Source: Promethearchaeota archaeon | Lineage (GTDB): Archaea > Asgardarchaeota > Lokiarchaeia > Sigynarchaeales > SOKP01 | NCBI GenBank assembly: GCA_019894655.1 | Contig: JAGXNZ010000108.1 | Location: forward strand, 1 to 12,381 | Reading direction: 5' to 3' | Length of the DNA stretch: 12,381 bases | Part shown: one piece after another, positions 1-12,381 of the stretch | Layout of the letters: each line of letters starts with the position of its first letter | How positions within the stretch are numbered: the first letter of the stretch is position 1 | The notes under the pieces: generated by a model | Told to the model about the DNA's origin: nothing | Database searches by the model: none | Seen by the model: the letters and a program-made list of their open reading frames with translations, nothing else | Translations under genes and position numbers: made by a program

Positions 1-292
1 ATTTATTGAATTAGCTTCTCTTCAACAACTTATCTCATTTTTGGAATTATTAATAGTTCGTAAATATATTCCAAGCTTAATTTTGAAGTACACTTTTCTT
101 TTTGTTTGCTTATCCTTGTTTTAAAAGAAAAAAGAAGACTAACTCAAGAATTTAGTTTATTAAAAATTAGCGTTAATATAATATGGAATTAAACAGAAGA
201 TGATAGTAAATTACAATTTATTGCTGGTTATGAAGCATTTGTTTTATATATTAATTGCCTAAAATTTCACAATAAAAGGTTGAAAAAGTCTT
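1..292. other. Left-edge region without a convincing gene
   Basis: No start-to-stop gene is supported here. On the plus strand a frame is open from position 2 to a stop at 122-124 (about 40 hydrophobic codons), and a second frame is open from 193 after a TAA at 190-192. The second reads through residues resembling the C-terminal end of a DDE transposase (a stretch ...FHNKRLKKS... at about 265-291) before overlapping the next gene. Both could be chance open frames in AT-rich DNA or remains of a decayed gene. The region also holds the TATA-like element for the next gene. Confidence 0.4.
242..251 (+). promoter_or_regulatory. TATA-like box upstream of the 7TM gene
   Basis: TTTTATATAT matches the archaeal TATA-box pattern. 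It would place transcription start near 270, leaving a leader of about 20 nt before the ATG at 293. That leader contains an AGGTTG stretch (277-282) that could serve as a weak ribosome-binding site. It is based on motif and spacing only. Confidence 0.3.
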
Positions 293-1006
293 ATGCTCAA
301 TCAAATATCACCGACTCGGATTATCTTAGTTTTTGGGCTACAACCGGTATTCGTATTCTTTTTTCTTTATATTGCGTATTTAATCTTTAAAAGGAAAATT
401 ACCCAAGCGACAAAGGTGTTGCTTATTTTTTATATTCTGACAGGTTTTGGATTAATTTTTAATATGGTAGCTGTATTAATAACTTTAACTAAAATAGAAT
501 GGATTAGCTTTCTTAGTTATGCTATTATGAGTTATTTTGTCTTCATTCCTCAAATATTCCTTGTTCTCTTTATATTAAAACTGCTCAATAATCCAGTGGG
601 TTTCAATAAGAAAAAGCAAAATATTTATTTTATTTTATTTTGTATAATAACACTATTAATAATAATGATTCCGGGGGGGATTACTGTAAATGAAAGCACT
701 AATTGGGCTCCCCGTTATAGTTGGGTATTTCTTATTATTGTTTACATCTTCTACTCGAGTTTTATCTTCATTCCTATTCTAGTAAATCTTATTAAATTGT
801 TGAAAACTTTTGAAGATAAATCTTTGAGAAGAAGATTATTACTCTTTTCTTATGGTACTATTGGGGTTATGATTGGTGTTTATGGGGCTGCATTGTACAA
901 CGCTTGGGATGAACCAACTTATAGGTTAATTTGGAGTTTGATTCAACTCTTTTTAATTCCAACTTCATCACTTCTGATATATTACGGAATCGGTAAAAAT
1001 CTATGA
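293..1006 (+). CDS. Seven-helix integral membrane protein, possible stand-alone sensor module
   Basis: I do not recognise a specific family. The 237-residue protein is almost entirely membrane-embedded, with hydrophobic segments at about residues 9-33, 41-65, 70-98, 110-132, 142-169, 179-201 and 212-235. Short basic loops (KRK near 34, NKKK near 105, LRRRL near 178-182) lie between them. Seven helices with basic cytoplasmic loops resemble the 7TM sensor domain found at the N-terminus of some histidine kinases, but the protein ends right after helix 7 and carries no kinase, PAS or other output domain. It could be a free-standing sensor or a protein of unrelated function. ATG at 293 is the first start in the frame. 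A hairpin/T-run follows the gene, so it is probably transcribed alone. The membrane topology is clear; the role is not. Confidence 0.75.
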   Translation: MLNQISPTRIILVFGLQPVFVFFFLYIAYLIFKRKITQATKVLLIFYILTGFGLIFNMVAVLITLTKIEWISFLSYAIMSYFVFIPQIFLVLFILKLLNNPVGFNKKKQNIYFILFCIITLLIIMIPGGITVNESTNWAPRYSWVFLIIVYIFYSSFIFIPILVNLIKLLKTFEDKSLRRRLLLFSYGTIGVMIGVYGAALYNAWDEPTYRLIWSLIQLFLIPTSSLLIYYGIGKNL

Positions 1007-1021
1007 TTAATCATAAAAGTT

Positions 1022-1061
1022 CGAATTATGCATGAACTTCATGATTCGTAAATAATTTTTT
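1022..1061 (+). terminator. Stem-loop followed by T-run after the 7TM gene
   Basis: CGAATTATG (1022-1030) can pair with CATGATTCG (1040-1048) with one G-T wobble over a 9-nt loop. A T6 run follows at 1056-1061. An alternative stem AAGTTC/GAACTT overlaps it. Archaeal termination depends mainly on the oligo-T run; the stem may or may not matter. Confidence 0.4.
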
Positions 1062-1066
1062 ATAAG
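1056..1066 (+). promoter_or_regulatory. TATA-like box for the beta-helix membrane protein gene
   Basis: TTTTTTATAAG lies 20-31 nt upstream of the ATG at 1087, the spacing expected if transcription begins at or very near the start codon (leaderless mRNA, common in archaea). It overlaps the T-run of the preceding terminator candidate. No Shine-Dalgarno motif precedes this ATG, which fits. Confidence 0.45.
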
Positions 1067-1086
1067 ATTTTAGTAATAATAGTATT

Positions 1087-1887
1087 ATGAACGATGAGAA
1101 AGAAGTAGGAAAAACAAATTCTGAGTTTGACCAGAAAAAGGATAAAGTTGTAGAATTTGCCATTTTCGATTTCCTTAAAATTAACTTAATTAGTTTCTTG
1201 GCTCCTTTATATGTATGTTTAGGGTTTTTTTTATTATTCGAGTATGGTTTTATAATTCCATTCTCAATCCCGTTAGATATTCATATTTTTCTACTCGCTG
1301 GATTTCTTTTTTTTCTTTATTTCCTTTACCTTATTCTCTTAATTGAGTTTACAGCATTATGGACTGGTAGATGGAATAAAAAATCTCCCCCTGTAGAAGG
1401 CGTGTTTAGAAGAGTTTTAGATGATAAAGAGGGCGATGAGGGTAAAATGATGAAATACTATCATAAGCGAGGATTTATCATTAAATTTCCGATGTGGTTA
1501 ACTTCGAAATCTCCGTTCCCATGGCTCGTTAATAGAACTTTGCGGAGAATAGGTCACAATAAACTCGGGAAAAATGTTATTTATTGCGATGCGTACGTAG
1601 GATTAGAACTTACTGAATTAGGAGATAATGTGTTCATATATCCTACTTCTGCCCTATCAAGTCACGCTGTAAACACAATATTTGGGAAAATTAGTATGAT
1701 GAAAATAAAAATGGGAAAAAATACAACACTGTATCCTGGAGTTATAATGGGGCCAAATGCTTTAACCACCGATAACAATGTAATTTTTCCAAACACAGTG
1801 TTGCATAAGAATTGGCGAGGAAAGCCAGATAAACTCTACTATCAAGGTAGTCCTGGGCGCCCTATAGAAGCGAGCGATAATGAATGA
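1087..1887 (+). CDS. Two-helix membrane protein with left-handed beta-helix (hexapeptide-repeat) acyltransferase-like domain
   Basis: The 266-residue protein begins with a charged 22-residue tail, followed by two hydrophobic segments at about 28-56 and 64-92. A cytosolic basic linker follows, then a hexapeptide-repeat region at about 155-260. Short turns in that region such as LGKNV, LGDNV, MGKNTTLYPG and TTDNNVIFPN alternate with small hydrophobics, the signature of left-handed beta-helix acyl/acetyltransferases. The turn count is low for a full trimeric enzyme, so substrate and activity are open. A His in SSHAVN (193) lies where such enzymes often keep a catalytic or structural histidine, but this is only a suggestion. 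Membrane anchoring plus this fold also recalls the C-terminal domain of Pls-type peptide synthetases. It faces a convergent acyl-CoA synthetase subunit gene. The fold call is fairly firm; the reaction is unknown. Confidence 0.72.
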   Translation: MNDEKEVGKTNSEFDQKKDKVVEFAIFDFLKINLISFLAPLYVCLGFFLLFEYGFIIPFSIPLDIHIFLLAGFLFFLYFLYLILLIEFTALWTGRWNKKSPPVEGVFRRVLDDKEGDEGKMMKYYHKRGFIIKFPMWLTSKSPFPWLVNRTLRRIGHNKLGKNVIYCDAYVGLELTELGDNVFIYPTSALSSHAVNTIFGKISMMKIKMGKNTTLYPGVIMGPNALTTDNNVIFPNTVLHKNWRGKPDKLYYQGSPGRPIEASDNE

Positions 1888-1889
1888 TT

Positions 1890-1895
1890 AAAAAA
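1890..1895 (-). terminator. Oligo-T terminator candidate for the minus-strand cluster
   Basis: On the minus strand a T6 run lies about 30 nt past the stop codon of the acyl-CoA synthetase subunit gene, in the 38-bp gap between two convergent genes. Oligo-T runs are the main archaeal termination signal. No stable hairpin is seen next to it. Confidence 0.3.
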
Positions 1896-1925
1896 TACTA
1901 AGCACATTCTATACAAAATACGATT

Positions 1926-3413
1926 TTAATCTTTACTTTTTGGATATTTTTCGTGCTTTTGTAAGAATTCACGATACGAGTTTAGTTTATCCAAAACAGT
2001 TCCTGCGAGATCTAAAGATTCAAAGACGGGAACATTTCGATTAAGCAATTTCAGCTTGAACTTGTATCTACTTTTATATTCTTCAAACCCCTCGTTGATT
2101 TTTAGCATGACGCAATACATAGGTTTTGTACATACACTCTTCGCTTTGGATATGTATCGAATAAATTCTTTATTTAGATCTAATCCACCATATCCTAATT
2201 CTTCCATTAGGTCAGAAAATCCACCAAATCTCTCGGGATCCTTGATGAAAAGGATAGATGAAATGTTAGGATCTTTATCAAGGGCTAATATCGTACGATA
2301 GTAGATATTGGGTTGAATTCCCATCCCACCAAGATCTATTGGGTTTGACAAGTTCGTATTTACATCGGGAACGAACCGTTTCATTTTATTGACACTTTTT
2401 GCTGAGAGTGGGGGAATCGTTAGGTTGTACTTCTCTAAAATATCTATCGCTTCTATCGTGGATCCTCCACCTATTCCGATCACGCCAACATTTCGCGAAT
2501 TAGGTAAATGAGTTAAATTAAAAGCAGATGCCAACGCAGCAAGTTCATTTGAATTACTTGTTATGCAACTCCCAGTTTGTTTTCCTACAGCTTTCCAAAT
2601 TTCGTTGTTACCAGCCAAACCTCCTGTGTGAGATAATATCGCTTTTTTAGTTGCTTCTCCGTACCCCGCCCGCCAAAGAATAACAGGTTTGCGGTTTAAA
2701 TTACACTTTTTAACAATATCCATAAAATTTCTTCCTTGATCAATACTCCTTAGATTTTCAATGTATAAGCCAATAATTTTTGTTTGGTCGTCGTTTAAGA
2801 AATATTCTAAAAATTCCACGGGAGATAGGTCAAGAGAATTCCCTATCGAGATGAATTTGGATGCATACAATCCATATGATACTATGAGTTGGGATATGTT
2901 TTGAGCGATTCCCCCCGATTGAAAAATTCCTCCGAAATTACCGTACTTACGGGATTGCTCGTAAGCAAAAAATAATCCTCCTTTAGGATTATAAACACCA
3001 ATACAATTTGGACCGATGATTCGAAGATTATGTTTACGAGCTATTTCAATAGTCTGTTTTTCTAGATCCTCGTTACCAACTTCGCGGAATCCTGAAGAGA
3101 AAATTGTGCAAAAGGGAATAGACTTTTGGCCTACTTCATCTAAGACCTTTGGAACTAAGCGTGCCGGAACTGCAATAATAACATAATCTATAGGTTCAGA
3201 AATTTCTAATATTGATGCGTAAACCTTCTGGCCATATAATGTTTTTCCTGCTAATCTTGGGTTAAATAAATAGGTTTTTCCCTTAAATTTACCCCTCATT
3301 GCTCGAACAAAAAAACCTCCACCTGCAGGATCATGGCTTGCTCCTATAATCCCAATTGCTCTTGGAAAGAATAATCTGTTAAAATCTATTGATGATTTTT
3401 GTAATGAAGACAT
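1926..3413 (-). CDS. Acyl-CoA synthetase (ADP-forming), alpha subunit, without its beta subunit nearby
   Basis: ADP-forming acyl/acetyl-CoA synthetases convert acyl-CoA, ADP and Pi to acid, CoA and ATP, the archaeal route for ATP from acyl-CoA. Numbering from the upstream Met, the protein shows a CoA-binding Rossmann domain (about 18-140; GIIGAS at 23-28, GFREVG at 110-115, GPNCIGV at 136-142). Two succinyl-CoA-ligase-like domains follow; SHTGGLAG (263-270) carries the phosphorylated-histidine position H264. Near 497 residues it matches a stand-alone alpha subunit (domains 1-2-5) and is too long for SucD. No ATP-grasp beta subunit is encoded here, so its partner must lie elsewhere. An ATG at 3419 is also in frame, but AGGT sits directly against it and 6 nt before the ATG at 3413, so I prefer 3413. 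The acyl substrate cannot be read from sequence. Confidence 0.85.
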   Translation of the reverse strand: MSSLQKSSIDFNRLFFPRAIGIIGASHDPAGGGFFVRAMRGKFKGKTYLFNPRLAGKTLYGQKVYASILEISEPIDYVIIAVPARLVPKVLDEVGQKSIPFCTIFSSGFREVGNEDLEKQTIEIARKHNLRIIGPNCIGVYNPKGGLFFAYEQSRKYGNFGGIFQSGGIAQNISQLIVSYGLYASKFISIGNSLDLSPVEFLEYFLNDDQTKIIGLYIENLRSIDQGRNFMDIVKKCNLNRKPVILWRAGYGEATKKAILSHTGGLAGNNEIWKAVGKQTGSCITSNSNELAALASAFNLTHLPNSRNVGVIGIGGGSTIEAIDILEKYNLTIPPLSAKSVNKMKRFVPDVNTNLSNPIDLGGMGIQPNIYYRTILALDKDPNISSILFIKDPERFGGFSDLMEELGYGGLDLNKEFIRYISKAKSVCTKPMYCVMLKINEGFEEYKSRYKFKLKLLNRNVPVFESLDLAGTVLDKLNSYREFLQKHEKYPKSKD

Positions 3414-3476
3414 TGTCATACCTAGAAAAATTCGATTAAATTAATAAAAAATATAGTAGAACTTGACTAAAATATT

Positions 3477-4196
3477 TTATTGGTAAGTTCTTCCTAAAGT
3501 TCTGTTTAATAAAGCAATATCGTTAGTAAAAATCCCATCAACACTTAATTTTATTAGTTTTTTCATCATATCTTCCTCATTTACTGTAAATACATTAACT
3601 TTAAGACCATGGCTATGAGCTAAATCTATAAATTCTTTATTAACTGTTGGATAATATGGATGGATAGCATATAGTTCATTATCTATTGCTCTTTGAAGAT
3701 ATCTTTTTACCATTCGAATTTTTGTTAAAGCCCTAGGAATTAAATAACCTAATTTTAATCCAGGCTCAATTTCCTTTACTTTTAATAATGCTGTAATGTC
3801 AAAACTGCTAACAATTGATGTGCTGATTAGGTTTTCTTCTCTTAAAACCTTAATTAAATCGTTTACAATTCCGGGAGCAATAATTTCAGGCTGGAGTTTT
3901 ATTTTTCCTCTAGTGAGTGCTATTAATTCCTTAAATGTAGGTATTCGCTCGCCCTCTCCAATATCTATCTTCTTGACTTCTTCAATTGACATATCTCGTA
4001 AATTTTTTAGTATACCAGCAGTCCTTAAAAGATTGGAATCATGACTTATAATAATTTTATTATCGAGAGTCTTCTGAAGATCAAATTCAATATAATCTGC
4101 ATTTAATTCAAATGCTCTCTCAAAAGATTTTAAGGTGTTTTCAGGTGCTTCTGAACTAGCTCCTCTGTGACCTATTACTAAAAAATCATTTTTCAT
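3477..4196 (-). CDS. Glycerophosphodiester phosphodiesterase (GDPD family), paralog 1
   Basis: GDPD enzymes hydrolyse glycerophosphodiesters to glycerol phosphate and an alcohol, in a metal-bound TIM barrel. The 239-residue protein has the complete N-terminal signature: HRGASSEAPENT with H10, the metal ligands E37 and D39 in YIEFD, and the second catalytic-type histidine in SHD (H52). The later acidic position usually written E-x-K is E104 in LQPEI and lacks the following lysine found in its neighbour. The C-terminal barrel end reads FTVNEE...DGIFTND. There is no signal peptide or membrane anchor, so it is probably cytosolic. It lies 65 bp downstream of a second GDPD gene and 57 bp upstream of the acyl-CoA synthetase subunit, on the same strand. 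The family is firm; whether the substrate is an ether-lipid head group is unknown. Confidence 0.9.
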   Translation of the reverse strand: MKNDFLVIGHRGASSEAPENTLKSFERAFELNADYIEFDLQKTLDNKIIISHDSNLLRTAGILKNLRDMSIEEVKKIDIGEGERIPTFKELIALTRGKIKLQPEIIAPGIVNDLIKVLREENLISTSIVSSFDITALLKVKEIEPGLKLGYLIPRALTKIRMVKRYLQRAIDNELYAIHPYYPTVNKEFIDLAHSHGLKVNVFTVNEEDMMKKLIKLSVDGIFTNDIALLNRTLGRTYQ

Positions 4197-4230
4197 TCTA
4201 CTAAAAATAATATCCCCAAATAGTAATTTG

Positions 4231-4246
4231 TAATAAATTTTTATTA
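4231..4246 (-). promoter_or_regulatory. TATA-like inverted repeat between the two GDPD genes
   Basis: TAATAAA and TTTATTA flank a central TT, forming a 7-bp inverted repeat 35-50 nt upstream of the GDPD paralog 1 start. It could be that gene's own TATA region, so the minus-strand genes need not be a single operon. AT-only composition makes the repeat weak evidence. Confidence 0.25.
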
Positions 4247-4261
4247 ATCGGATTACTTAGA

Positions 4262-4993
4262 CTATACATTACGGTTCAAAACTTCTTTAAGACGAGTTAT
4301 ATCGTTAGTTATGATTCCATCTGTGCCCATATTAATTAATTTTCTCATAGCAATTCCAGAATTAACGGTCCATGGAAATACTTTAATATTTTTTTCATGG
4401 GCATATTCAATAAATTGTTTATCAGCTAGTTTATATAGCGGATTAATTGCATAGTAATTATTTTGAGAAGTGTAATCAATTAATTTCTTTTTATAATTCC
4501 AATCTGAGAATTTTCCTGCTTCAGTAGGAACAAGGGTTGCCAATTTTAATTGTGGTTCAATTTTTTGTATCTTTATCAATTCTTCATGTAAAAATGAACT
4601 AACTATTGTAGAATCAAGAATATCAGTATCTTGGAATATTTGAATAATTTTGTTAGCAATACCTTCTACCTTAACTTCGCAATTAAGAGATATTTTATCC
4701 TTTGCTAACTTAATTAATTCCAATAGTGTTGGAATTAGCTCACCATTTCCAAAATTTAATTTTTTTAATTCTTTAAGTGTCAGTTGTTTGACAATACCTT
4801 CGGTTCCTGCTGTTCTTAGGGTATTGTCATCGTGGATGATAACAATTTCACCATCCAATGTTTCTTGGACATCAAATTCAACAGAATCTGCTTTTAAGCG
4901 AATTGCTTCTTTAAATGCTTTTAACGTATTCTCGGGGGCTATTTTACTTGCGCCTCGATGACCCATGATGATAATTCTGTTATTTGCATTCAT
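4262..4993 (-). CDS. Glycerophosphodiester phosphodiesterase (GDPD family), paralog 2
   Basis: This second GDPD of 243 residues keeps every expected motif: GHRGASKIAPENT (H12), E39 and D41 in VEFD, H54 in IHDDN, and E106 in NCEVK, the E-x-K form missing in its neighbour. The barrel closes with PWTVN and DGIITND near the end. Reading the two proteins side by side, they align over their whole length with long shared stretches, so the pair looks like an old tandem duplication followed by divergence, mostly in the middle insert (about 150-175). There is no signal peptide. It is the first gene of the minus-strand cluster, divergent from the LRR gene across 121 bp. The likely role is cytosolic breakdown of glycerophosphodiesters released from lipids; exact substrate unknown. 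Confidence 0.9.
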   Translation of the reverse strand: MNANNRIIIMGHRGASKIAPENTLKAFKEAIRLKADSVEFDVQETLDGEIVIIHDDNTLRTAGTEGIVKQLTLKELKKLNFGNGELIPTLLELIKLAKDKISLNCEVKVEGIANKIIQIFQDTDILDSTIVSSFLHEELIKIQKIEPQLKLATLVPTEAGKFSDWNYKKKLIDYTSQNNYYAINPLYKLADKQFIEYAHEKNIKVFPWTVNSGIAMRKLINMGTDGIITNDITRLKEVLNRNV

Positions 4994-5011
4994 ATTGATA
5001 TTCTCTCATAA

Positions 5012-5025
5012 AATAATTAATTATT
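5012..5025. promoter_or_regulatory. 14-bp AT palindrome in the divergent GDPD/LRR intergenic region
   Basis: AATAATTAATTATT is its own reverse complement and lies 19-32 bp upstream of the GDPD paralog 2 ATG, where that gene's TATA region should be. It could be the TATA box itself or an overlapping operator. Being AT-only, it carries limited weight. Confidence 0.3.
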
Positions 5026-5078
5026 ACTTTAAAAGTTAGCATTTGCTTTTCTTAATTAATGAGATCACATCCAATAAG

Positions 5079-5086
5079 TTTAAATA
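5079..5086 (+). promoter_or_regulatory. TATA-like box for the LRR gene
   Basis: TTTAAATA is centred about 32 nt upstream of the ATG at 5115, consistent with a very short leader or none. No Shine-Dalgarno motif precedes this start. Confidence 0.4.
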
Positions 5087-5114
5087 AGAGATTAACTAAA
5101 ATCAATATCAATCC

Positions 5115-5876
5115 ATGAGTATACAACAAAGTCAAACTTTTGTTATATATAACGGCCAAAAATTTAATATAGAAAATCAAGCCTTGTGCTTAACCAATAA
5201 GAGCATAAAGGATATTGAAAAAATACAAGGGCTCGAAAAATTATCGAACTTGCACACTTTAGATTTATCAAATAACCAAATAACTCAAATTAATGGTTTA
5301 AATAAACTCAAAAAATTAGAGATTTTATGTTTAAATAATAATCAAATTACTGAAATAAAAGGTCTTGATAATCTTGAAAACTTAAGGGTATTATGGTTGA
5401 AAAAAAACCTAATATCTGAAATCAAAGGTTTAAATTCCCTTCGTAATCTTGAAGAACTTTGGTTAAAAAAAAATAAGATTTCTATAATCAAGAATTTAAA
5501 TGAACTTAAAAAATTAAAATATTTGTGTTTATGCGATAATCTGATTTCTGAGATTAAAGGACTTGATTCCCTTATTAATTTAAGGAGTTTAAATCTAATT
5601 AAAAACAAAATTTCCGTCATAACTAATCTCCAACACTTAAGTAATTTAGAGTTTTTAGATTTAAGTTATAATAGAGTAAGCAATATTGAAGGGTTAGCAA
5701 ACCTTTCAAATTTAAATTTTTTAGGGTGCACACACAATAAAATAATTCAAATAAAAGATTTAGATAACCTAAAAAAAATTAGTACTCTTTGTTTAGAAGG
5801 CAATCCAATAGATTTGCGAAAATTAAGAAAAAATTATGAAAAAACTTTAACCCAAAAAGATAATATCCTAGCTTAA
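5115..5876 (+). CDS. SDS22-like leucine-rich-repeat protein
   Basis: The 253-residue protein is nearly all leucine-rich repeat. A short cap (1-24: FVIYNGQKFNIE) leads into a half repeat (CLTNKSIKDIEKIQG). Nine units of exactly 22 residues follow from L40 to L237, with pattern LxxLxxLxxLxLxxNxIxxIxx, then a 16-residue basic tail. The 22-residue unit with I-x-x-I is the SDS22-like class, which builds a curved solenoid used for protein-protein binding; the eukaryotic SDS22 regulates protein phosphatase 1. The spacing has no insertions, so the solenoid is likely regular. The unit-7 asparagine position and most others are intact. There is no signal peptide or membrane segment, so it is probably cytosolic. 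Its partner is unknown and the neighbours do not indicate one. Confidence 0.9.
   Translation: MSIQQSQTFVIYNGQKFNIENQALCLTNKSIKDIEKIQGLEKLSNLHTLDLSNNQITQINGLNKLKKLEILCLNNNQITEIKGLDNLENLRVLWLKKNLISEIKGLNSLRNLEELWLKKNKISIIKNLNELKKLKYLCLCDNLISEIKGLDSLINLRSLNLIKNKISVITNLQHLSNLEFLDLSYNRVSNIEGLANLSNLNFLGCTHNKIIQIKDLDNLKKISTLCLEGNPIDLRKLRKNYEKTLTQKDNILA
5232..5825 (+). repeat. Nine 66-bp in-frame tandem repeats encoding LRR units
   Basis: Each 66-bp unit encodes one 22-residue leucine-rich repeat with no change of unit length across nine units. Units 2, 3 and 5 share the ending ISEIKG/ITEIKG, suggesting recent internal duplication or gene conversion among these copies; the others are more diverged. 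It is a protein repeat, not a CRISPR array. Confidence 0.8.
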
Positions 5877-5896
5877 CGCACTAAATTCTCATACCC

Positions 5897-5920
5897 TTAT
5901 TATTAGTTATACAATAATAA
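5897..5920 (+). terminator. Weak stem-loop after the LRR gene
   Basis: TTATTATT (5897-5904) and AATAATAA (5913-5920) can pair across an 8-nt loop, about 20 nt past the LRR stop codon. The stem is all A-T and no clean T-run follows, so it is a weak terminator candidate. Confidence 0.2.
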
Positions 5921-5946
5921 CGTAAAAGAAAAATTTAAATATCTGA

Positions 5947-6001
5947 ACTTAACTCCTCTCATTGGACGCCGTTAAGTTTATAAATGTTAAGTATTTTAAG
6001 T
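5947..6001 (+). promoter_or_regulatory. TATA box flanked by GTTAAGT repeats, zinc-ribbon gene promoter
   Basis: A good archaeal TATA box, TTTATAAAT (5977-5985), is bracketed by two copies of GTTAAGT (5971-5977 and 5986-5992). A near copy TTTAAGT lies at 5995-6001 and an inverted copy ACTTAAC at 5947-5953. Transcription would start near 6007, giving a leader of roughly 80 nt before the preferred ATG at 6091. The repeated heptamer looks like binding sites for a regulator that would block or assist TBP; this is inference. Confidence 0.45.
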
Positions 6002-6090
6002 ATTAATTGACGATAGAATATTATACAACACATCTAAGGAATAATAAACTTAAAATAGTAAAAAATGAAAATTTGGTGGTAATCGAAACC

Positions 6091-6342
6091 ATGAAGTTCT
6101 GTCCAGAATGCGACAATATCATCTTTCCAAAAAATAAAAAATTATATTGTAAGGCGTGCGATAAAGAATTCAATTTAGAAGCCGAAGCAGATGATTTTAA
6201 AATAGTTAAAAAGATCATACACGACGAGAAGGAGTCAGCTCCTATAGTTGTGAAAGAATCAATGAATAATATCAAAATTTCTGCTCGAGATAGAAAAGCT
6301 TTTGAAGAATTCTTTGATACTGGTAGTGCTGAGAGTTATTAA
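6091..6342 (+). CDS. Single zinc-ribbon protein related to the N-terminal domain of TFS/RPB9
   Basis: The 83-residue protein starts MKFCPECDN and has C4, C7, C20 and C23 in CPEC...YCKAC, the zinc ribbon found at the N-terminus of archaeal transcription factor S and RNA polymerase subunit RPB9, which binds the polymerase. Full TFS is around 105-115 residues and has a second C-terminal ribbon with an acidic DE tip that stimulates RNA cleavage. Here the second ribbon is absent, replaced by a charged, probably helical tail (30-83) ending in EEFFDTG. It may therefore bind polymerase without the cleavage activity, or be an unrelated zinc protein. I chose ATG 6091 because GGTGGT (6075-6080) sits 10 nt upstream and the Zn-ribbon starts immediately. 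A TTG at 6007 is in frame and would add 28 residues. Confidence 0.7.
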   Translation: MKFCPECDNIIFPKNKKLYCKACDKEFNLEAEADDFKIVKKIIHDEKESAPIVVKESMNNIKISARDRKAFEEFFDTGSAESY

Positions 6343-6472
6343 CCTCACGGAGCGATAGCAATTCTCAGATTTAGAATCATACTTCTTCTTAGTTTTAAAC
6401 TTTAAAAAAGACAATTTTAAAGATACTTTATTATTATTAGAATTAATAAATTAGGAAATTACGGTATCGTGA

Positions 6473-6490
6473 TTTTACATTAATGTAAAA
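6473..6490. promoter_or_regulatory. Perfect 18-bp palindrome upstream of the SCP2-like gene, operator candidate
   Basis: TTTTACATTAATGTAAAA equals its own reverse complement and ends 11 nt before the ATG at 6502. A TATA-like TTAATAAAT (6443-6451) would place the transcription start near the left edge of the palindrome. A dimeric helix-turn-helix regulator bound there would obstruct initiation. The regulator is not identified. Confidence 0.5.
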
Positions 6491-6501
6491 AATGATTAAC
6501 C

Positions 6502-6903
6502 ATGAATGAAGTAGAAAAAAAGAAGCGGTTAAAAGGATTTGCTAAGGTTGTGGCTAAAGAAGTAGAAGTTTTGAACACAATCGAGAAATTTAAAGAAGAT
6601 TATAAGGATTCTTTAATCAAAATTCTTTTAAATGCCAAAGATGGAAAATATGCAGCACTATTAGTAATAGAAAAGGGTAGGATCTATGTTGAGGGCATTG
6701 AAAACACCCCAAAATCGAACATATCGAAAAAAACTCTTGGTTGGGATGGTTTAATGCAAACAAAAACCGAAGTGTTTGTAGACATCTTGGGAGGGGGAGA
6801 TATTTCAATGGGATCAATTATTTGGAAAGTTATCACTTTTCGGATCAAAATAAAAGGTATTAAAAATGTTCTGATTTTAATGAAACTGTTTGAATATGAA
6901 TAG
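6502..6903 (+). CDS. SCP2-like (sterol carrier protein type) lipid-binding protein
   Basis: The 133-residue protein has a basic, helical N-terminus (1-45) and an SCP2-type fold at about 46-131. A beta strand pair (YAALLVIEKGRIYVEGIE) leads to a segment with WDGLMQT at 81-87, then the GGGDISMGSIIW turn-helix where the family carries its 'G-x-l' element, and finally FRIKIKGIKNVLILMKLF closing the lipid pocket. SCP2-like domains bind acyl-CoA, lipids or other hydrophobic ligands and often work beside lipid enzymes. There is no signal peptide, so it is probably cytosolic. Nearby acyl-CoA synthetase and GDPD genes are compatible with lipid metabolism but are not in the same transcript. The gene is preceded by a perfect palindrome, so it is probably individually regulated. 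The family call rests on pattern and length; the ligand is unknown. Confidence 0.65.
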   Translation: MNEVEKKKRLKGFAKVVAKEVEVLNTIEKFKEDYKDSLIKILLNAKDGKYAALLVIEKGRIYVEGIENTPKSNISKKTLGWDGLMQTKTEVFVDILGGGDISMGSIIWKVITFRIKIKGIKNVLILMKLFEYE

Positions 6904-6936
6904 TGAAGATAAGTTCAACGGGGATTAAATAATTTA

Positions 6937-6964
6937 ATTCGAAAACGAATAAAATCTATTTTTT
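6937..6964 (+). terminator. Hairpin plus T-run between convergent genes
   Basis: ATTCG (6937-6941) and CGAAT (6946-6950) form a 5-bp stem over AAAA, and a T6 run follows at 6959-6964. It lies about 35 nt after the SCP2-like stop codon, just before the end of the convergent helical-protein gene. The stem is short, so the oligo-T run may be the active part. Confidence 0.35.
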
Positions 6965-6968
6965 CCAA

Positions 6969-7400
6969 TCATCCTTCTAATTTGAATACCTTTAAAATTG
7001 ATAATATTTTTTCTTTTAAACCTTTAGAGTCTTCATCCTTTATAGACTGGATAACCACCTTTTTATCTTGATCAGATATATCTTGAAATTTATCAAGGAA
7101 TAAGCGTAAAAAGAGCACTTTCTTGGAAGGATTTTTTTGAATATTTGTAATGAGATTATCAATTAATAAATCTATTGATGAGACCTCTTGATTCGATGAT
7201 TCTGGATCACATATTTTTTCCTTATTAATTCCATGTTCTTTAATAATACTATTCTGTTCAATAATATCTCGTGTAATTTCCCGAAGAAGTTCAATACGAG
7301 AGGATATTGGCAAATTTGAAAGAATTTCATCTATCTCTACATTTTTTTGCTCGAAGTCTTCTATAAGTGAAAGTGTTTTTAATATATTTTCTCGCTCCAT
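6969..7400 (-). CDS. Small helical protein of unknown function, divergent from RNase III
   Basis: I do not recognise this 143-residue protein. It is acidic to neutral, rich in Glu, Ile, Lys and Leu, with no cysteine pairs, no signal peptide and no membrane segment. Predicted helices occupy about 1-20, 22-53, 74-90, 93-108 and 112-140, separated by a polar linker around 60-74 (CDPESSNQEVSS). The pattern is that of a soluble helical bundle or coiled coil, possibly a dimer. ATG at 7400 is the first start in frame. It is transcribed away from the RNase III gene across only 53 bp, with overlapping promoter elements, so the two may be regulated against each other. A functional link (an inhibitor, partner or unrelated neighbour) is inference only. 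Confidence 0.6.
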   Translation of the reverse strand: MERENILKTLSLIEDFEQKNVEIDEILSNLPISSRIELLREITRDIIEQNSIIKEHGINKEKICDPESSNQEVSSIDLLIDNLITNIQKNPSKKVLFLRLFLDKFQDISDQDKKVVIQSIKDEDSKGLKEKILSILKVFKLEG

Positions 7401-7415
7401 ATACTTCTAACTTTT

Positions 7416-7452
7416 TTTAAATTTTTAAATTTATCCTTACATTTTATATAAG
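7416..7452. promoter_or_regulatory. Interlocked divergent promoters of the helical protein and RNase III genes
   Basis: Plus strand: TTTAAATTTTTAAATTTA (7416-7433) lies about 21-38 nt before the RNase III ATG at 7454, at the leaderless TATA distance. Minus strand: CTTATATAAAAT (7452-7441) is a strong TATA match and would start transcription near 7420, about 20 nt before that gene's ATG at 7400. Each TATA box therefore sits inside the other promoter's footprint, so occupancy could be mutually exclusive. Confidence 0.4.
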
Positions 7453-7453
7453 T

Positions 7454-8176
7454 ATGGATAAAGTTACAGAAGAGATATTAGGTCAATTTCAAGATTTTAT
7501 ATCTTACCGTTTTAATGAACCAGAAATCCTGCTTCAAGCCCTAACTACGCCCCAATTTGCTAACGAAAAAAAACTTCTTCACTATCAAATCCTCGAAACG
7601 CTTGGTGATGCAATAATAAAATTAATCCTTAGTTTAAAACTCTATAATAAAGGTGAAGTTGATCCTGGTGAATTAACTAAAACTAAACAACACTTAGAGG
7701 ATAATCAAACGTTTCAAAAAATAGCGGAGGAAATGGAATTGTGTAAATACATTTTTTCTTCTAAAAAGCAGAAAGTAAAAGACACTTCGATTCTTGCTGA
7801 TGTATTCGAAGCGATATGTGGGGCGATTTTTCTTGATTCAGGAAATAATCTACAAGTTGTTGAAAAAATAATTATTGATAGGTTTTTCACTGATTGGGAG
7901 TCGTTAATAAAGGAATCACCTCACTTATATAAAAATCAACTTTTAGAATATCTACAGAACAAATTCAAGATAACTCCCACTATAAAGTTTGATTATGAAA
8001 AGCTAGGCTCAGATAATGATACTCGTTGGATTGCGAAAAATCCAGAAATAGTTGGTATTAATCAAAAAGAGCTAATTAAAGTACCTAATTACTTGAAATC
8101 AGAAAAATTTAGAAAAATTAAAGACGCTGAGAAAAATATTAGTCTGAAAATTTTAAAATACTTACAAGGAATATGA
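7454..8176 (+). CDS. rnc: Ribonuclease III with divergent dsRNA-binding domain
   Basis: RNase III cleaves double-stranded RNA with two metal ions in each active site of a dimer. Residues 1-150 hold the catalytic domain, with the signature ILETLGDA (46-53) and DVFEAICGAIFLD (116-128). Aligned to E. coli RNase III, the ligands E41, D45, D114 and E117 correspond to E48, D52, D116 and E119, all kept. E38 becomes Q45 and E65 appears replaced by P71. Residues 157-238 resemble a dsRBD: KNQLLEYLQ opens it and KIKDAEKNIS...KILKYL closes it, but the middle lacks the usual G-x-x-H loop and carries a non-canonical stretch (200-216), so RNA binding may be altered. At 240 residues it matches bacterial RNase III in length. 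Most archaea lack this enzyme, so its presence is notable. It is probably active for catalysis. Confidence 0.88.
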   Translation: MDKVTEEILGQFQDFISYRFNEPEILLQALTTPQFANEKKLLHYQILETLGDAIIKLILSLKLYNKGEVDPGELTKTKQHLEDNQTFQKIAEEMELCKYIFSSKKQKVKDTSILADVFEAICGAIFLDSGNNLQVVEKIIIDRFFTDWESLIKESPHLYKNQLLEYLQNKFKITPTIKFDYEKLGSDNDTRWIAKNPEIVGINQKELIKVPNYLKSEKFRKIKDAEKNISLKILKYLQGI

Positions 8177-8352
8177 AATTCACTCTTATTTCAATCGTTT
8201 TAATTTTAAAATAATTTTTATTAGGGAAGTTCGAACAAAATAGAATCTTAAGGTTTAAAACCTTCCTAATACTTCTAAACCTACTGCAGTAATGATTATC
8301 TTAGTATTATTTAACTGTTTAAATTTTTAAACTTAAAAAAGGGTTAATCTCA
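8177..8352. other. Intergenic region between RNase III and ABC ATPase genes
   Basis: No gene is seen. It contains a 15-bp inverted repeat AAGGTTTAAAACCTT (8250-8264, arms of 7 around one base). This lies within a longer imperfect pairing of TTAGGGAAG (8221-8229) with CCTTCCTAA (8261-8269). It could be a terminator-type structure for RNase III or an RNA structure that the neighbouring RNase III might itself cut; the latter is speculation. Confidence 0.4.
8317..8332 (+). promoter_or_regulatory. Palindromic TATA-like element upstream of the ABC ATPase gene
   Basis: GTTTAAA and TTTAAAC flank a central TT, a 7-bp inverted repeat ending 20 nt before the ATG at 8353, the place of a leaderless TATA box. 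The core TTTAAATTTTTAAA is identical to the core of the RNase III promoter at 7416-7429. It could serve as TATA box, operator or both. Confidence 0.35.
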
Positions 8353-9531
8353 ATGTCTGAAGGAAAAATTGTTAAAAAAACTCAGGAAATGGATGAATAC
8401 GAAAACGAAACTGGAAAACTAGCAATATGGAAAGGAAGTGAAAGTAAAGAATTTCGAAAATGGCAAATGAAAAAACAAAAAAATACGATAAAAAAGCAGA
8501 AATTGGAGTCACTTACTCTCTCTCGTGAAGAAAGAAAGAAATTCAAATCAGAATTAAAACAAGAAAAAGAAGTGGGAAGAGATTATGACCACTTGATTGT
8601 TGTTGAAAACTTACACAAAACGTACTTACTCGGAACCACGGCGGTAGCGGCTCTCCGTGGCGTTGATTTAACGATTGACAAGGGTAATTTCATAGATATA
8701 ATGGGTCCTTCAGGAAGTGGCAAAACAACCCTTTTGAACCTAATAGGGGGATTGGATACTCCTACGAGAGGAAAAATTTTCTTGGAAGGGCGTAATATAT
8801 CTATGCTTAATGACAACGACTTAGCAGAAATAAGAAGAGAACGAATTGGCTTTGTGTTTCAATTCTATAATTTACTACCCCAAATGACAGCGTTAGAAAA
8901 TGTGATGGTTCCCTTGCATTTTTCCGGAAAATTAAGTAGAAGAGGCAAGAGAAAAAAAGCAATGGATTTATTAACTCTTGTTGGATTAGAAGAACGTTCC
9001 CATCATGCTCCTTCAGAGTTAAGTGGAGGGGAGCAGCAAAGAGTAGCGATAGCTAGAGCATTTGCAAATGATCCGGCTATATGTGTATTAGATGAACCTA
9101 CTGGTGATTTGGACTCAAAAACTGGAGTAATGATCTTAAATTTACTTAGGGATTTAAACAAGAGAGGAGCAACTTTTATATCTGTTTCTCACGATGCAGC
9201 TGTATCTGAGTTCGCTTCAAAAGTGTTTCACATGAGAGATGGAAAATTAACCGACAAGGGAAAAATTGGAGGTCTAAAAGAAACAGAAAATATGCAGATA
9301 CGAAGGAAACAGGACGCTGAAATTAATAAAGAAAAATGTAAAAATATGATTTTTAGATATCTCTTCGCTAATCAAGGGAGAAATCGTATCCAAGTAAGTG
9401 AGATTAAAAATAGTGTTCCAAATCCAATCCTTATGAACTTACCAGAACATTTTAACGATATTCTTGTGGAATTATTACAAGAAAATAATATTAGTGGAAA
9501 TGTTATTGGAAATGAATTGTTTTTAGAATAA
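8353..9531 (+). CDS. ABC transporter ATP-binding protein (MacB/LolD type) with N- and C-terminal extensions
   Basis: This is the ATPase of an ABC exporter of the MacB/LolD family, which couples ATP hydrolysis to mechanical work by an FtsX-type permease. The nucleotide-binding domain spans about 81-305: Walker A GPSGSGKTT (118-126), Q-loop Q170, signature LSGGEQQR (223-230), Walker B ICVLDE (243-248), D-loop, and the switch histidine H280. Typical family members are about 220-250 residues, whereas this one has 392. Residues 1-78 are a lysine/glutamate-rich, probably helical extension with many basic residues. Residues about 325-392 follow a charged linker and read like a small winged helix (ILVELLQENNISGNVIGNELFLE-type ending). 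The permease gene starts 51 bp downstream, so the two probably form one unit. The ATPase call is firm; the roles of both extensions are inference. Confidence 0.92.
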   Translation: MSEGKIVKKTQEMDEYENETGKLAIWKGSESKEFRKWQMKKQKNTIKKQKLESLTLSREERKKFKSELKQEKEVGRDYDHLIVVENLHKTYLLGTTAVAALRGVDLTIDKGNFIDIMGPSGSGKTTLLNLIGGLDTPTRGKIFLEGRNISMLNDNDLAEIRRERIGFVFQFYNLLPQMTALENVMVPLHFSGKLSRRGKRKKAMDLLTLVGLEERSHHAPSELSGGEQQRVAIARAFANDPAICVLDEPTGDLDSKTGVMILNLLRDLNKRGATFISVSHDAAVSEFASKVFHMRDGKLTDKGKIGGLKETENMQIRRKQDAEINKEKCKNMIFRYLFANQGRNRIQVSEIKNSVPNPILMNLPEHFNDILVELLQENNISGNVIGNELFLE

Positions 9532-9548
9532 GAAATTCATCAACTTAA

Positions 9549-9559
9549 TATTTAAAATA
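9549..9559 (+). promoter_or_regulatory. Possible internal TATA box before the permease gene
   Basis: TATTTAAAATA lies 24-34 nt before the permease ATG in the 51-bp gap after the ATPase gene. No Shine-Dalgarno motif precedes that ATG, so the permease could have its own leaderless transcript besides co-transcription with the ATPase. Confidence 0.3.
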
Positions 9560-9582
9560 AAATCTATAATTTTTTACCTCAT

Positions 9583-12381
9583 ATGTCTAATATAAAATTA
9601 GTATTCAAATATGCATTTAAAGACCTATCGCGTCATAAAGTAAGATCATCGTTAGGCATAATTGGTATAATGATTTCTGTAGGGCTTTTAGCGCTGATTC
9701 TTTTTTTATCTGATTCTATTTCGGTTACATTTATTGATTATCTTAGCATAGATGCGGGTCAACAAGATTTTAACATTAATGTAAGGCATTATAATGGTGA
9801 ACCAGACAATAGATCTAATTATTTCGAGTTTCAACCGTTAATAAATACGATACAGAATAATATAAACGAAATTGGTGGATTTATTCCAAGAATGGGTTTA
9901 TGGGGTGATGTGAACATATCGAAAGGGGTAGGAACCCAAGAATTAGAAAATGAAACGAGAGGAGTATCGATCTCTGGTATAAACTTCACTTTGGAAAATA
10001 GATTAAAGTTTGGGAGTTTTATTACGCCTGGATCAAATGAATTACTAGACTTAACAGAATTACCGTTATATCACGTTGCCATTTATTACAAGTTGAATGA
10101 GGAAATAAAATACGCAGAAAATGACACAATTGAAATTAGGATGGGTTTACGACATGGTAATAAAGTTTTTTCAAGAGTTCAAAACTTTACAATTGATCGA
10201 ATTTTTGATTTTCAATTAAAATGGCCAGTTAGCTATACGAATAGACCATTAATTGTTGTTGATATCAACACTCTTTATGATCTCTTTGGAAATGAAACAA
10301 TTAATGGAACGTGTAATGAACTAATTCTTACGGTAAAAAAAGGCTTAAATTTGTATGACGCTCGAGATATTGAAGGTTCTGAAAATCGGGTAAAAGATTT
10401 AGCGGGTGATGTTCAACTTTTAATAGGGATTAATGAATTTAGAATTGAATTGCCTAAATTACTAGTCTTGGGCTTTTCCGAATTTTTAAGTGTTGGAATA
10501 ACAATAATTTTTGTGTTTGTATCTATGATCACTATGTTGATATCAGGAGTATTAATTAACGGTATACTTAAAACTTCAGTGGAAGAACGAATAAGAGAAT
10601 TCGGAATCTTTAGGACAGTGGGTGCTACAAAGAAGTATAATTTGTTTATTGTGCTAGTTCAGGGATTTTTGTTATGTAATTTTGGTACGATATTAGGGAT
10701 TATTTTTGCTCAATTAGCCACTCAATTTATTGTCCTTCCCTTCGCAGGAGCAGCCGTAGCAGAAACCATCCCGGGATTAGCGGGCAATATTACATTTTCT
10801 ATAACTATTTGGTCAATTTTAATAGCATATATTATAGGAGTAAGCGTTGGACTTATAGTAAGCATTTCTCCAGCAGTAAAAGTGATGAAACTCCAATTAA
10901 TCGAATCCATTCATCCTTACCGTAAAGAAGATGTCTTATATAAGCTCCAGAAAAAAGCTTCCGTAAATTATAAATTATTAATAGTAGGTGCTATTTTGGC
11001 GGTAAATGGTGCGTTTGTTCTTTTTGTTATTCCAAGAATATTAACTACTGGAGATTTTGCGCTGATGTCAGGTACTTTAATAGCTCTCCTCATTATTTTT
11101 TTAATTGGAATGACATTTGCAGGACTAGCCATATTACCCTTGATATTAAGACTTTTCATAAGGTTATTTAGAATATTTGGTAAGAGAATAGCACCAGTGT
11201 ATAAAATTTTTATATTTCGATATGCAAGGAGAAATTCTAGTACCGTTGTTACCTTTGCTTTTACTTTTTCTTTCATAATATTTACTTCTAGTATATTTAG
11301 TTTCTTAGCTAATGAATCAGTAGTTGGTGCACACCTTAACTACGGAGCAGATTTAGTTATAGAGACGCAAGGTTGGTATGAACCAGAAGAAATTGAAGCT
11401 TTAACTTTATTTGGAGGGGGTGGCGGTTTTCTCAGTATTTCTCAAGAAAATGGGTATAATATAAATCCTAACAGAATCTTGACAAGTGATTTCGAAGAAG
11501 AATTGTTAGAGATGGAGGGAATTGAGAGAGTTTCTACAGTAATCGCGAGCCCATTTCACCTAACTCAAATTTATTCAGAGGAAGGCCAAGTATTTGCCGC
11601 AGAGATTGGCGATTACGCAGGTTTAGCGACTCAAGAAATTACTTTAATAGGAATTGATGAACAATATCCCTCTACAATTAAAACTCAGTATGTAGAATTT
11701 ACTCAAGGTAACATTATTTCGTCTTTTAGCCAACTTTTTAGCATTCCAGATGGATATACGTGTATTATTTCCGAGGGTTTGTCTCTAAGTTTAGATATGC
11801 ATTTAGGGGATATAATACGGATTTCAATTCAGCGTGGTTATGAAAATGAGATATACACATTTAAAATCGCAGGAGTAGCAGCAGCTATGCCGGGATTTTC
11901 TTCGGAATTTGGCAGGTCCAGCGCATCAGCAAACATGGGAGGAGTCATGATCTCGCAAGAAATATATATGACGCTTATGGATATCCCTCCTATTCCCTAT
12001 CTGGAAAAAATTTTTGTTAAACTTAATTTATATTCTCAAGGATTGTCTCAAGATATTATGGCACTCGTAAGAGAGAACGAGGAAGACTTTGATTTTGAAG
12101 TTATTAGCTTACAACAACAAGTTACACAACAACAATTATTATTTTCGATTATTAATATATTTTTTTCAATAACATTAGACGCAACAGTTATAATCTGCCT
12201 TTTTGGTTTACTTTCATCTTCTTATTCGACAATCATCGAAAGAAAGAAAGAAATCGGAATCATCAGAACATTAGGTCTAAAAGGCAAAGAAATCGTACGA
12301 TTGTTCACAATTGAATCATTAATTATAATGATGAGTAGTGGGACCGTAGGGGTTATAGTAGGATGGGTAACAGGGTTATTG
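9583..12381 (+). CDS. ABC transporter permease, two-module FtsX/MacB type (3' end outside window)
   Basis: The frame is open from ATG 9583 to the window end, 933 codons without a stop, so the gene is truncated by the window edge. The N-terminus (MSNIKLVFKYAFKDLSRHK) is the usual cytosolic amphipathic lead-in. A helix at about 24-48 is followed by a large extracytoplasmic domain (49-290). FtsX-module helices lie at about 293-325, 355-383 and 405-430, with the coupling motif VEERIREFGIFRTVGA (333-348). Helices at 463-486, 495-527 and 553-577 lead to a second outside domain (578-850). A second FtsX module then begins (about 853-880), with ERKKEIGIIRTLG (886-898) and a last helix running into the edge. 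Two such modules in one chain is the layout of large archaeal and bacterial permeases of this family. It pairs with the adjacent ATPase; substrate (lipoprotein, lipid or peptide export, or surface signalling) cannot be read. Confidence 0.9.
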   Translation, partial: MSNIKLVFKYAFKDLSRHKVRSSLGIIGIMISVGLLALILFLSDSISVTFIDYLSIDAGQQDFNINVRHYNGEPDNRSNYFEFQPLINTIQNNINEIGGFIPRMGLWGDVNISKGVGTQELENETRGVSISGINFTLENRLKFGSFITPGSNELLDLTELPLYHVAIYYKLNEEIKYAENDTIEIRMGLRHGNKVFSRVQNFTIDRIFDFQLKWPVSYTNRPLIVVDINTLYDLFGNETINGTCNELILTVKKGLNLYDARDIEGSENRVKDLAGDVQLLIGINEFRIELPKLLVLGFSEFLSVGITIIFVFVSMITMLISGVLINGILKTSVEERIREFGIFRTVGATKKYNLFIVLVQGFLLCNFGTILGIIFAQLATQFIVLPFAGAAVAETIPGLAGNITFSITIWSILIAYIIGVSVGLIVSISPAVKVMKLQLIESIHPYRKEDVLYKLQKKASVNYKLLIVGAILAVNGAFVLFVIPRILTTGDFALMSGTLIALLIIFLIGMTFAGLAILPLILRLFIRLFRIFGKRIAPVYKIFIFRYARRNSSTVVTFAFTFSFIIFTSSIFSFLANESVVGAHLNYGADLVIETQGWYEPEEIEALTLFGGGGGFLSISQENGYNINPNRILTSDFEEELLEMEGIERVSTVIASPFHLTQIYSEEGQVFAAEIGDYAGLATQEITLIGIDEQYPSTIKTQYVEFTQGNIISSFSQLFSIPDGYTCIISEGLSLSLDMHLGDIIRISIQRGYENEIYTFKIAGVAAAMPGFSSEFGRSSASANMGGVMISQEIYMTLMDIPPIPYLEKIFVKLNLYSQGLSQDIMALVRENEEDFDFEVISLQQQVTQQQLLFSIINIFFSITLDATVIICLFGLLSSSYSTIIERKKEIGIIRTLGLKGKEIVRLFTIESLIIMMSSGTVGVIVGWVTGLL

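Follow-up and report, generated by a model that had tools for sequence, protein, structure and literature searches.

The window analysed here comprises 12,381 nucleotides of a Promethearchaeota archaeon (assembly GCA_019894655.1, contig JAGXNZ010000108.1, positions 1 to 12,381) and carries, on its forward strand, a gene for an RNase III, an enzyme of double-stranded RNA (dsRNA). The locus raises the question of whether the gene came from bacteria, belongs to the lineage behind the catalytic domains of eukaryotic Dicer and Drosha, or is an RNase III of the archaea themselves. The last answer is favoured: the gene is likely a vertically inherited lokiarchaeal RNase III on an archaeal branch, most likely encoding a homodimeric dsRNA-cutting enzyme. 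The basis of this reading is formed by the sequence and its conservation, the predicted fold, synteny, distribution and trees.

The open reading frame begins with the ATG at position 7454, has its stop codon ending at 8176 and encodes 240 amino acids. Two curated Pfam profiles match the protein above their cut-offs, Ribonucleas_3_3 (PF14622, E=1.8e-21, 77.1 bits, cut-off 35) and Ribonuclease_3 (PF00636, E=2.1e-18, 67.4 bits, cut-off 27). The NCBIfam equivalog TIGR02191 matches with E=4.2e-33 and 114.7 bits, which lies below the 166.25 bits demanded of an equivalog and is an early hint of divergence. A homology search found 296 homologues at E<=1e-5 among 906 candidates, and the ratio of non-synonymous to synonymous substitution rates (dN/dS) is 0.11-0.26 in all six comparisons with orthologues, two of which have dS values close to saturation (1.75 and 2.0). 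Because of these homologues and ratios the reading frame is not a chance one, and genes of this type evolve under purifying selection. In the following, window-type denotes RNase IIIs of the same kind as the 7454-8176 gene (the Loki family, 163 aligned sequences), and the ANME-type set (named after anaerobic methanotrophic archaea) has 17 sequences; both sets omit loci below the bit limits of the script, for example L048. The homologues drawn on are the 120 listed of 296 and the 120 listed of 732, together 122 distinct proteins. The sequences used for comparison are 36 bacterial, 11 from other Halobacteriota, 15 from other Asgard archaea, 5 Argonaute-linked and 4 eukaryotic. The features of the gene are as follows.

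7454..8176, + strand: RNase III (catalytic domain and dsRNA-binding domain), 240 amino acids (Pfam, TIGR02191, structure alignment, homologues, dN/dS)
7478..7888, + strand: RNase III catalytic domain, residues 9-145
7580..7612, + strand: signature motif HYQILETLGDA, residues 43-53, with Q45 (E. coli E38), E48 (E41), T49 (F42) and D52 (D45) (sequence, alignments)
7664..7666, + strand: Pro71 at the E. coli E65 position (Pro in 159/163 window-type and Glu in 34/36 bacterial sequences)
7799..7810, + strand: D116 ... E119, second pair of metal ligands (E119 in 162/163 window-type sequences, a gap in the remaining one)
7919..8173, + strand: predicted dsRNA-binding domain, residues 156-240, with helices 156-171 and 222-239 and strands 176-184, 191-200 and 206-208 (AlphaFold2, structural neighbours)
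8006..8029, + strand: loop 2, G185-S-D-N188-D-T-R-W192 in place of G-P-x-H-x-x-x-F (sequence, alignments)
8030..8119, + strand: lengthened beta2-beta3-alpha2 connection, residues 193-222 (W192-A225 exceeds the usual bacterial span by 11 residues)

One RNase III domain (RIIID) is followed by a C-terminal dsRNA-binding domain (dsRBD), and by this order and the predicted fold with its structural matches the protein belongs to class I. The single RIIID within 240 residues sets it apart from Dicer and Drosha, which have two (with helicase and PAZ domains in Dicer), and the predicted dsRBD sets it apart from Mini-III, which has none. The bacterial class I enzymes (Aquifex 2nug, E. coli 7r97) resemble it in domain composition, metal ligands and fold, whereas the window protein lies outside the bacterial group, has Pro at the E65 and Thr at the F42 position, lacks the loop histidine and has a longer span within the dsRBD.

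Pfam dsrm matches the C-terminus with E=0.055 and 14.5 bits, below its cut-off of 23, and is suggestive only, so that the profile search proposed in a first-pass annotation confirmed the RNase III domain but not this one. The structure prediction that it also proposed did yield a confident dsRBD-like fold (AlphaFold2, mean predicted local distance difference test score 88.5 for the whole protein and 87.0 for the domain alone), and the top structural neighbours of this fold are dsRBDs (Foldseek, VIA-align). The same annotation had called the domain degenerate for want of the G-x-x-H loop. The domain is indeed divergent, with N188 closing G-S-D-N, but the model and alignments describe a variant dsRBD, not a ruin. 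The loop-2 histidine position is H in 28, N in 96 and D in 29 of the 163 window-type sequences and H in 17/17 ANME-type ones, so that the loss is limited to part of the Loki family. In the first helix, K160, E165 and Q168 are invariant (163/163). The span from W192, the loop aromatic, to A225, the alanine of KKxA, measures 33 residues in the window protein, in 138/163 window-type and in 13/17 ANME-type sequences, and 34 in all three sequences of another Asgard group. It is 22 in 32/36 bacterial and 10/11 other Halobacteriota sequences and in Drosha, the sole eukaryotic dsRBD in the set, and intermediate (25-30) in the other Asgard RNase IIIs (15 + 5 sequences).

The full-length tree gathers the long-span proteins on one branch. 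All trees are unrooted; the first has 86 sequences, the careful catalytic-domain tree 47 of them (leaving out, among others, L228, L185 and Drosha IIIb, flagged as long branches), and the full-length tree 43, without eukaryotes and without Aquifex. In the catalytic-domain tree (135 columns), the Loki family is supported with 100/98, its union with the other Asgard group (L137/L139) with 89/76, and a wider clade that also takes in ANME and an Argonaute-linked Asgard group with 84/89; without the latter group the clade is weak on the catalytic domain alone (77/79). In the full-length tree (229 columns), the Loki family joins L137/L139 with 94/88, and both join ANME with 98/90. We define the archaeal long-span branch (Loki, the other Asgard group and ANME-1 type) by the span together with this full-length clade, and the window protein shows both. 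Owing to these two features, the window RNase III appears to sit on an archaeal branch common to another Asgard group and ANME-1-type archaea. The label bacterial-type given by the first-pass annotation therefore does not suit a protein that falls outside the sampled bacteria and shares its long dsRBD span with archaeal members.

Topology tests are in line with this placement. The bacteria and three Halobacteriota sequences nested among them are compatible with a single clade (approximately unbiased test, p-AU 0.475), and holding the Loki family together with these 12 bacterial and 3 nested sequences gives p-AU 0.017, so that a bacterial-clade placement is disfavoured. This test is preferred over that of Loki with all bacteria (p-AU 0.007) because the Halobacteriota sequences nest among bacteria. 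Bacteria contribute a small panel, 12 of the 47 sequences, and the p-values are weakened because the tested groups were chosen in view of the first tree. A single clade of all Asgard sequences is not rejected (p-AU 0.27).

The gene lies in stable Lokiarchaeal chromosomal synteny. All 12 predicted genes of the window belong to families common to Lokiarchaeal contigs, each present in 3 to 35 of 35 loci, and in contig L003 all 12 families are conserved in identical order. The host is therefore a lokiarchaeon, which turns the conditional Asgard host of the first-pass annotation into a Lokiarchaeal chromosome; the deep bacterial placement on a contaminated contig that it named as a refutation is seen in neither respect. 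Upstream of the RNase III gene (rnc) stands a conserved divergent neighbour:

6969..7400, - strand: 143-amino-acid protein with no Pfam match (family in 32/35 Lokiarchaeal rnc loci)

This family directly adjoins rnc in 30 of its 32 loci, and two of the three loci without it end at a contig edge. The 143-residue protein is a candidate partner or regulator of rnc, a functional link that its position suggests. Downstream, an ABC ATPase family is found at 25/35 loci.

Scanning genome contigs with the family alignment gave 53 loci, 35 Lokiarchaeal, 14 from methane archaea (titled Methanophagales, ANME-1, Methanosarcinales, Methanomicrobiales or Methanomicrobia, with 28-32% identity) and 4 from Clostridia, the last matching mainly within the catalytic domain; the two search patterns behind this number are biased to close kin, and it is no census. 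In genome sets, PF00636 matched 152/227 genomes of the Asgard phylum, a count that includes a second, probably degenerate family, and 144/392 of the genomes sampled in the phylum to which an ANME-1 genome belongs. A window-type profile matched 105/227 Asgard genomes at E<=1e-10. The window type proper is present in 51/227, scoring 228-368 bits with the next match at only 137.5, and in one copy per genome wherever found. Among 14 named control genomes the eight with a PF00636 match were all bacteria, and Methanocaldococcus jannaschii, Haloferax volcanii and Methanosarcina acetivorans had no match. The statement that most archaea lack RNase III holds for many, the archaeal controls among them, but needs qualifying for the two phyla: RNase III is missing in some archaea, yet far from rare here, and an RNase III-type dsRNA enzyme, absent from the archaeon of the textbooks, is present in many Asgard archaea. 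A 2017 paper places RNase III in very few mesophilic archaea, through transfer, and allows acquisition by a Lokiarchaeota-like ancestor before endosymbiosis (PMC5303251). Among the papers listed in searches of the open-access PubMed Central literature we recognised no description of the window family or of an archaeal RNase III branch, barring the rnc beside HrAgo1 (PMC11217426).

The members of this branch outside Asgard archaea differ at several positions. The ANME-1/Methanophagales-type proteins (L036-L049) share the long span, the W after loop 2 and the full-length clade, but among the 17 sequences E at the E65 position (17), the loop His (17), Arg at the Q165 position (17) and Phe at the F42 position (15) separate them from the window protein, and their gene neighbours differ. 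At 14/14 of these loci one neighbour family (f11, ~300 residues) is common, the start of which we take to resemble a formyltransferase.

The catalytic residues speak for an enzyme. Equivalences come from alignment to solved RNase IIIs, with E. coli numbering according to PMC8708148 and PMC9291653. The window protein has all four metal-binding acids of the family, E48, D52, D116 and E119 (E. coli E41, D45, D114 and E117), and the residues that the first-pass annotation listed, including Q45, the proline at the E65 position (P71) and the want of a G-x-x-H loop, were read correctly; Thr49 did not figure among them. E48 and D52 are kept in 162/163 window-type sequences, the remaining one having a gap. 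Position 116 is D in 128/163 and E in 35/163, compared with Glu in 1/36 bacterial sequences. The change from E38 to Q, singled out earlier as notable, is found in 16/36 bacterial and 17/17 ANME-type sequences; judged by the alignments, Q45 is ordinary and P71 unusual among RNase IIIs. Pro at the E65 position occurs elsewhere in 3/15 other Asgard, 2/5 Argonaute-linked and 2/11 other Halobacteriota sequences. Thr49 replaces the signature Phe in 135/163 window-type sequences.

From this arrangement we infer a homodimer in which the paired catalytic domains would form a valley with two sites of two Mg2+ ions each (E48, D52, D116 and E119 per subunit), where both strands of dsRNA may be cut. The first helix of the dsRBD (K160, E165, Q168) and its enlarged beta2-beta3 region would grip the duplex, the loop-2 His being lost. 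The general role would be dsRNA turnover or the processing of structured RNA. As a variant member of a known family, the protein probably serves as a housekeeping dsRNA endonuclease. The conserved metal ligands and the dN/dS values argue for an active enzyme. Thr49 and the non-acidic E65 position call for caution, since Table 1 of PMC8708148 gives the E. coli variants F42G/D/R and E65A as lacking activity in vivo.

The length of the product is a separate matter. In E. coli RNase III, E38 and E65 belong to the surface that touches the RNA, and the E38A or E38A/E65A/Q165A enzymes are reported to yield 22-nucleotide products by an inside-out mechanism (PMC9291653). By analogy, the exchanges E38 to Q45 and E65 to P71 might make adjacent dimers pack, giving duplexes of ~22 instead of ~11 nucleotides, a natural 'bacterial Dicer'. 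This idea refines the archaeal housekeeping reading and does not oppose it, and we hold it to be unlikely. As in the engineered triple mutant, both valley-end acids are absent from the window protein, but it carries natural Q and P, not Ala, and retains Gln168 at the Q165 position. Both sites are neutral in 72/163 window-type sequences, with the exact Q/P pair in 67, and the 68 Q45 sequences form a single clade (local support 99, FastTree) nested among D/E sequences. The Q/P pair is found in 0/36 bacterial, 0/11 other Halobacteriota, 0/15 other Asgard and 0/5 Argonaute-linked sequences, and in 2/4 eukaryotic ones, both of them Dicer RIIIb. Counting against it, 91/163 family members do not combine two neutral sites, bacteria often have Q at E38 (16/36), a single bacterial sequence (R/K) among the 36 also lacks both acids, Pro differs from Ala, the E65A enzyme alone is a poor binder besides its inactivity (PMC8708148), and no Argonaute was recognised by Pfam scans among the 12 window genes. 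A further step, that the archaeal RNase III lineage in Asgard archaea predates eukaryotes and that the window clade is Dicer-like, making ~22-nucleotide duplexes without a PAZ/helicase ruler, is very doubtful; if true, this lokiarchaeon had RNAs of the size of small interfering RNAs before Dicer. With its natural Q/P pair the protein allows the determinants of RNase III product length to be tested directly.

It is distinctly improbable that the protein is a degenerate RNase III that binds dsRNA without cutting it and acts as a regulator. Such a function could explain Thr49 in place of Phe42, Pro71, the lost His at 188 and the D116E exchange in relatives, and catalytically dead E. coli RNase III is still able to bind (PMC8708148). 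The four metal ligands, however, are retained family-wide except for the D/E exchange at 116, and the dN/dS range noted above speaks against decay.

Descent of the Dicer or Drosha catalytic domains from the lineage of the window RNase III, a link raised by the first-pass annotation, is highly improbable. The Asgard host and the Q and P identical to those of Dicer RIIIb invite it, and kinship of Loki with Dicer RIIIb is not rejected (p-AU 0.18, or 0.32 with L137/L139 included). The two are nonetheless joined in no tree, and joining them costs 9.9 or, with L137/L139, 7.8 log-likelihood units. The Q shared with Dicer looks convergent because the Q45 clade is nested within Loki, and Drosha lacks the long dsRBD span. 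The eukaryotic domains compared are four in all, three in the tested tree. From these trees, Dicer kinship is neither favoured nor rejected, and nothing shows the window RNase III to be ancestral to Dicer or Drosha. As a conserved Lokiarchaeal RNase III exists on an archaeal branch, the origin of the Dicer catalytic domain need not be bacterial by default, and an Asgard source is a testable hypothesis.

RNase III is nearly universal in bacteria, which counts for a recent transfer from them or contamination of the contig. Although archaeal copies have been ascribed to transfer in print (PMC5303251, PMC4571572), this explanation is the least credible and is disfavoured by the Lokiarchaeal families of all 12 genes, the divergent neighbour at most Loki loci, the presence of the gene in 51 Asgard genomes and the p-AU of 0.017, which refers to a post-hoc group and a small bacterial sample. 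The transfer from bacteria that had been considered is thus disfavoured as a recent event, and an ancient one, also between archaea, is possible given the unrooted trees. The altered RNA specificity that the first-pass annotation coupled to such a transfer stands as a prediction.

A context reminiscent of RNA interference exists elsewhere in Asgard archaea. Piwi (PF02171) matched 20/227 Asgard genomes, 18 above the cut-off, and in five of the 20 (G101, G165, G183, G047, G132) a gene for an RNase III with dsRBD (L243-L247) lies near the Argonaute gene. It adjoins on the same strand in the first four, and lies on the opposite strand with one open reading frame between in G132. In G101, the PAZ-Piwi protein (Piwi 212 bits) is followed by a 1,276-residue AAA_11/AAA_12 helicase-like protein, the architecture described for HrAgo1 (PMC11217426). 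G047 combines RNase III and Argonaute with a similar 1,152-residue helicase-like protein. Two hmmscan runs assigned no family to the G047 Argonaute, yet its Piwi region scored 84.5 bits in the PF02171 scan. This Argonaute shares 37% identity with the Piwi-positive proteins of G165 and G183 across their length (BLASTP), and the RNase IIIs of the three genomes form one clade (100/97, catalytic-domain tree); on account of both relationships, G047, G165 and G183 appear to represent another conserved pairing of Argonaute with RNase III, in addition to that of HrAgo1. The RNase III beside HrAgo1 is likewise an Asgard RNase III with a dsRBD (PMC11217426), but the window gene, unlike it, has neither Argonaute nor helicase adjoining. 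The Argonaute-linked enzymes belong to other subfamilies, with dsrm above the Pfam cut-off in 4/5 and none of window type, and G132 and G165 hold both kinds. If any Asgard RNase III bears on the origins of RNA interference by its context, it is these and not that of the window.

The second RNase III-like family that inflates the Asgard RNase III counts has ~196-256 residues, about 120 N-terminal ones followed by a C-terminal RNase III fold. By eye, the inspected sequences of this fold read like LALLGDAALDLA ... KGTLVEAIxGxIYxE and have lost the E41 and D114 equivalents. The family comprises loci L116, L119, L122, L124, L126-L129, L131, L140-L153, L162-L166 and L173, those beyond the inspected sequences being assigned by match pattern only. 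In addition, six loci of ANME-1-phylum genomes (L175-L180) encode short RNase III-domain proteins of 145-196 residues, Mini-III-like in size, with little or zero room for a dsRBD.

With regard to pre-rRNA processing, a role that we do not claim for the window RNase III, ribosomal RNA genes were sought in six Asgard genomes, and the flanks of five genes in three of them were compared with 40 mononucleotide shuffles each. In G003, the only Loki genome with a full 16S match, the best flank duplex (-71.2) is close to the shuffled mean (-69.5, minimum -81.9). The two 16S copies of G101 gave -108.7 (mean -90.6, minimum -110.5) and -85.7 (mean -88.3). In G022, which is without the window type, long complementary stems around 16S and 23S (L241, L242) reach -100.6 and -113.2 and exceed the shuffled minima of -80.7 and -96.6. 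As regards defence or viruses, PADLOC had no match (E<=0.01) for the RNase III or three neighbours, and two search patterns found no relative of the window RNase III on viral contigs. Nine phage records match it partially, with 28-34% identity over 51-77% of the protein.

Two further loci of the window are of note. A zinc-ribbon protein resembling transcription factor S is encoded at 6007-6342 (+); TIGR01384 scores 33.2 bits, below its cut-off of 64.75, and the family is present in 29/35 Loki rnc loci. Two glycerophosphodiester phosphodiesterase genes stand in tandem at 3477-4993 (-).
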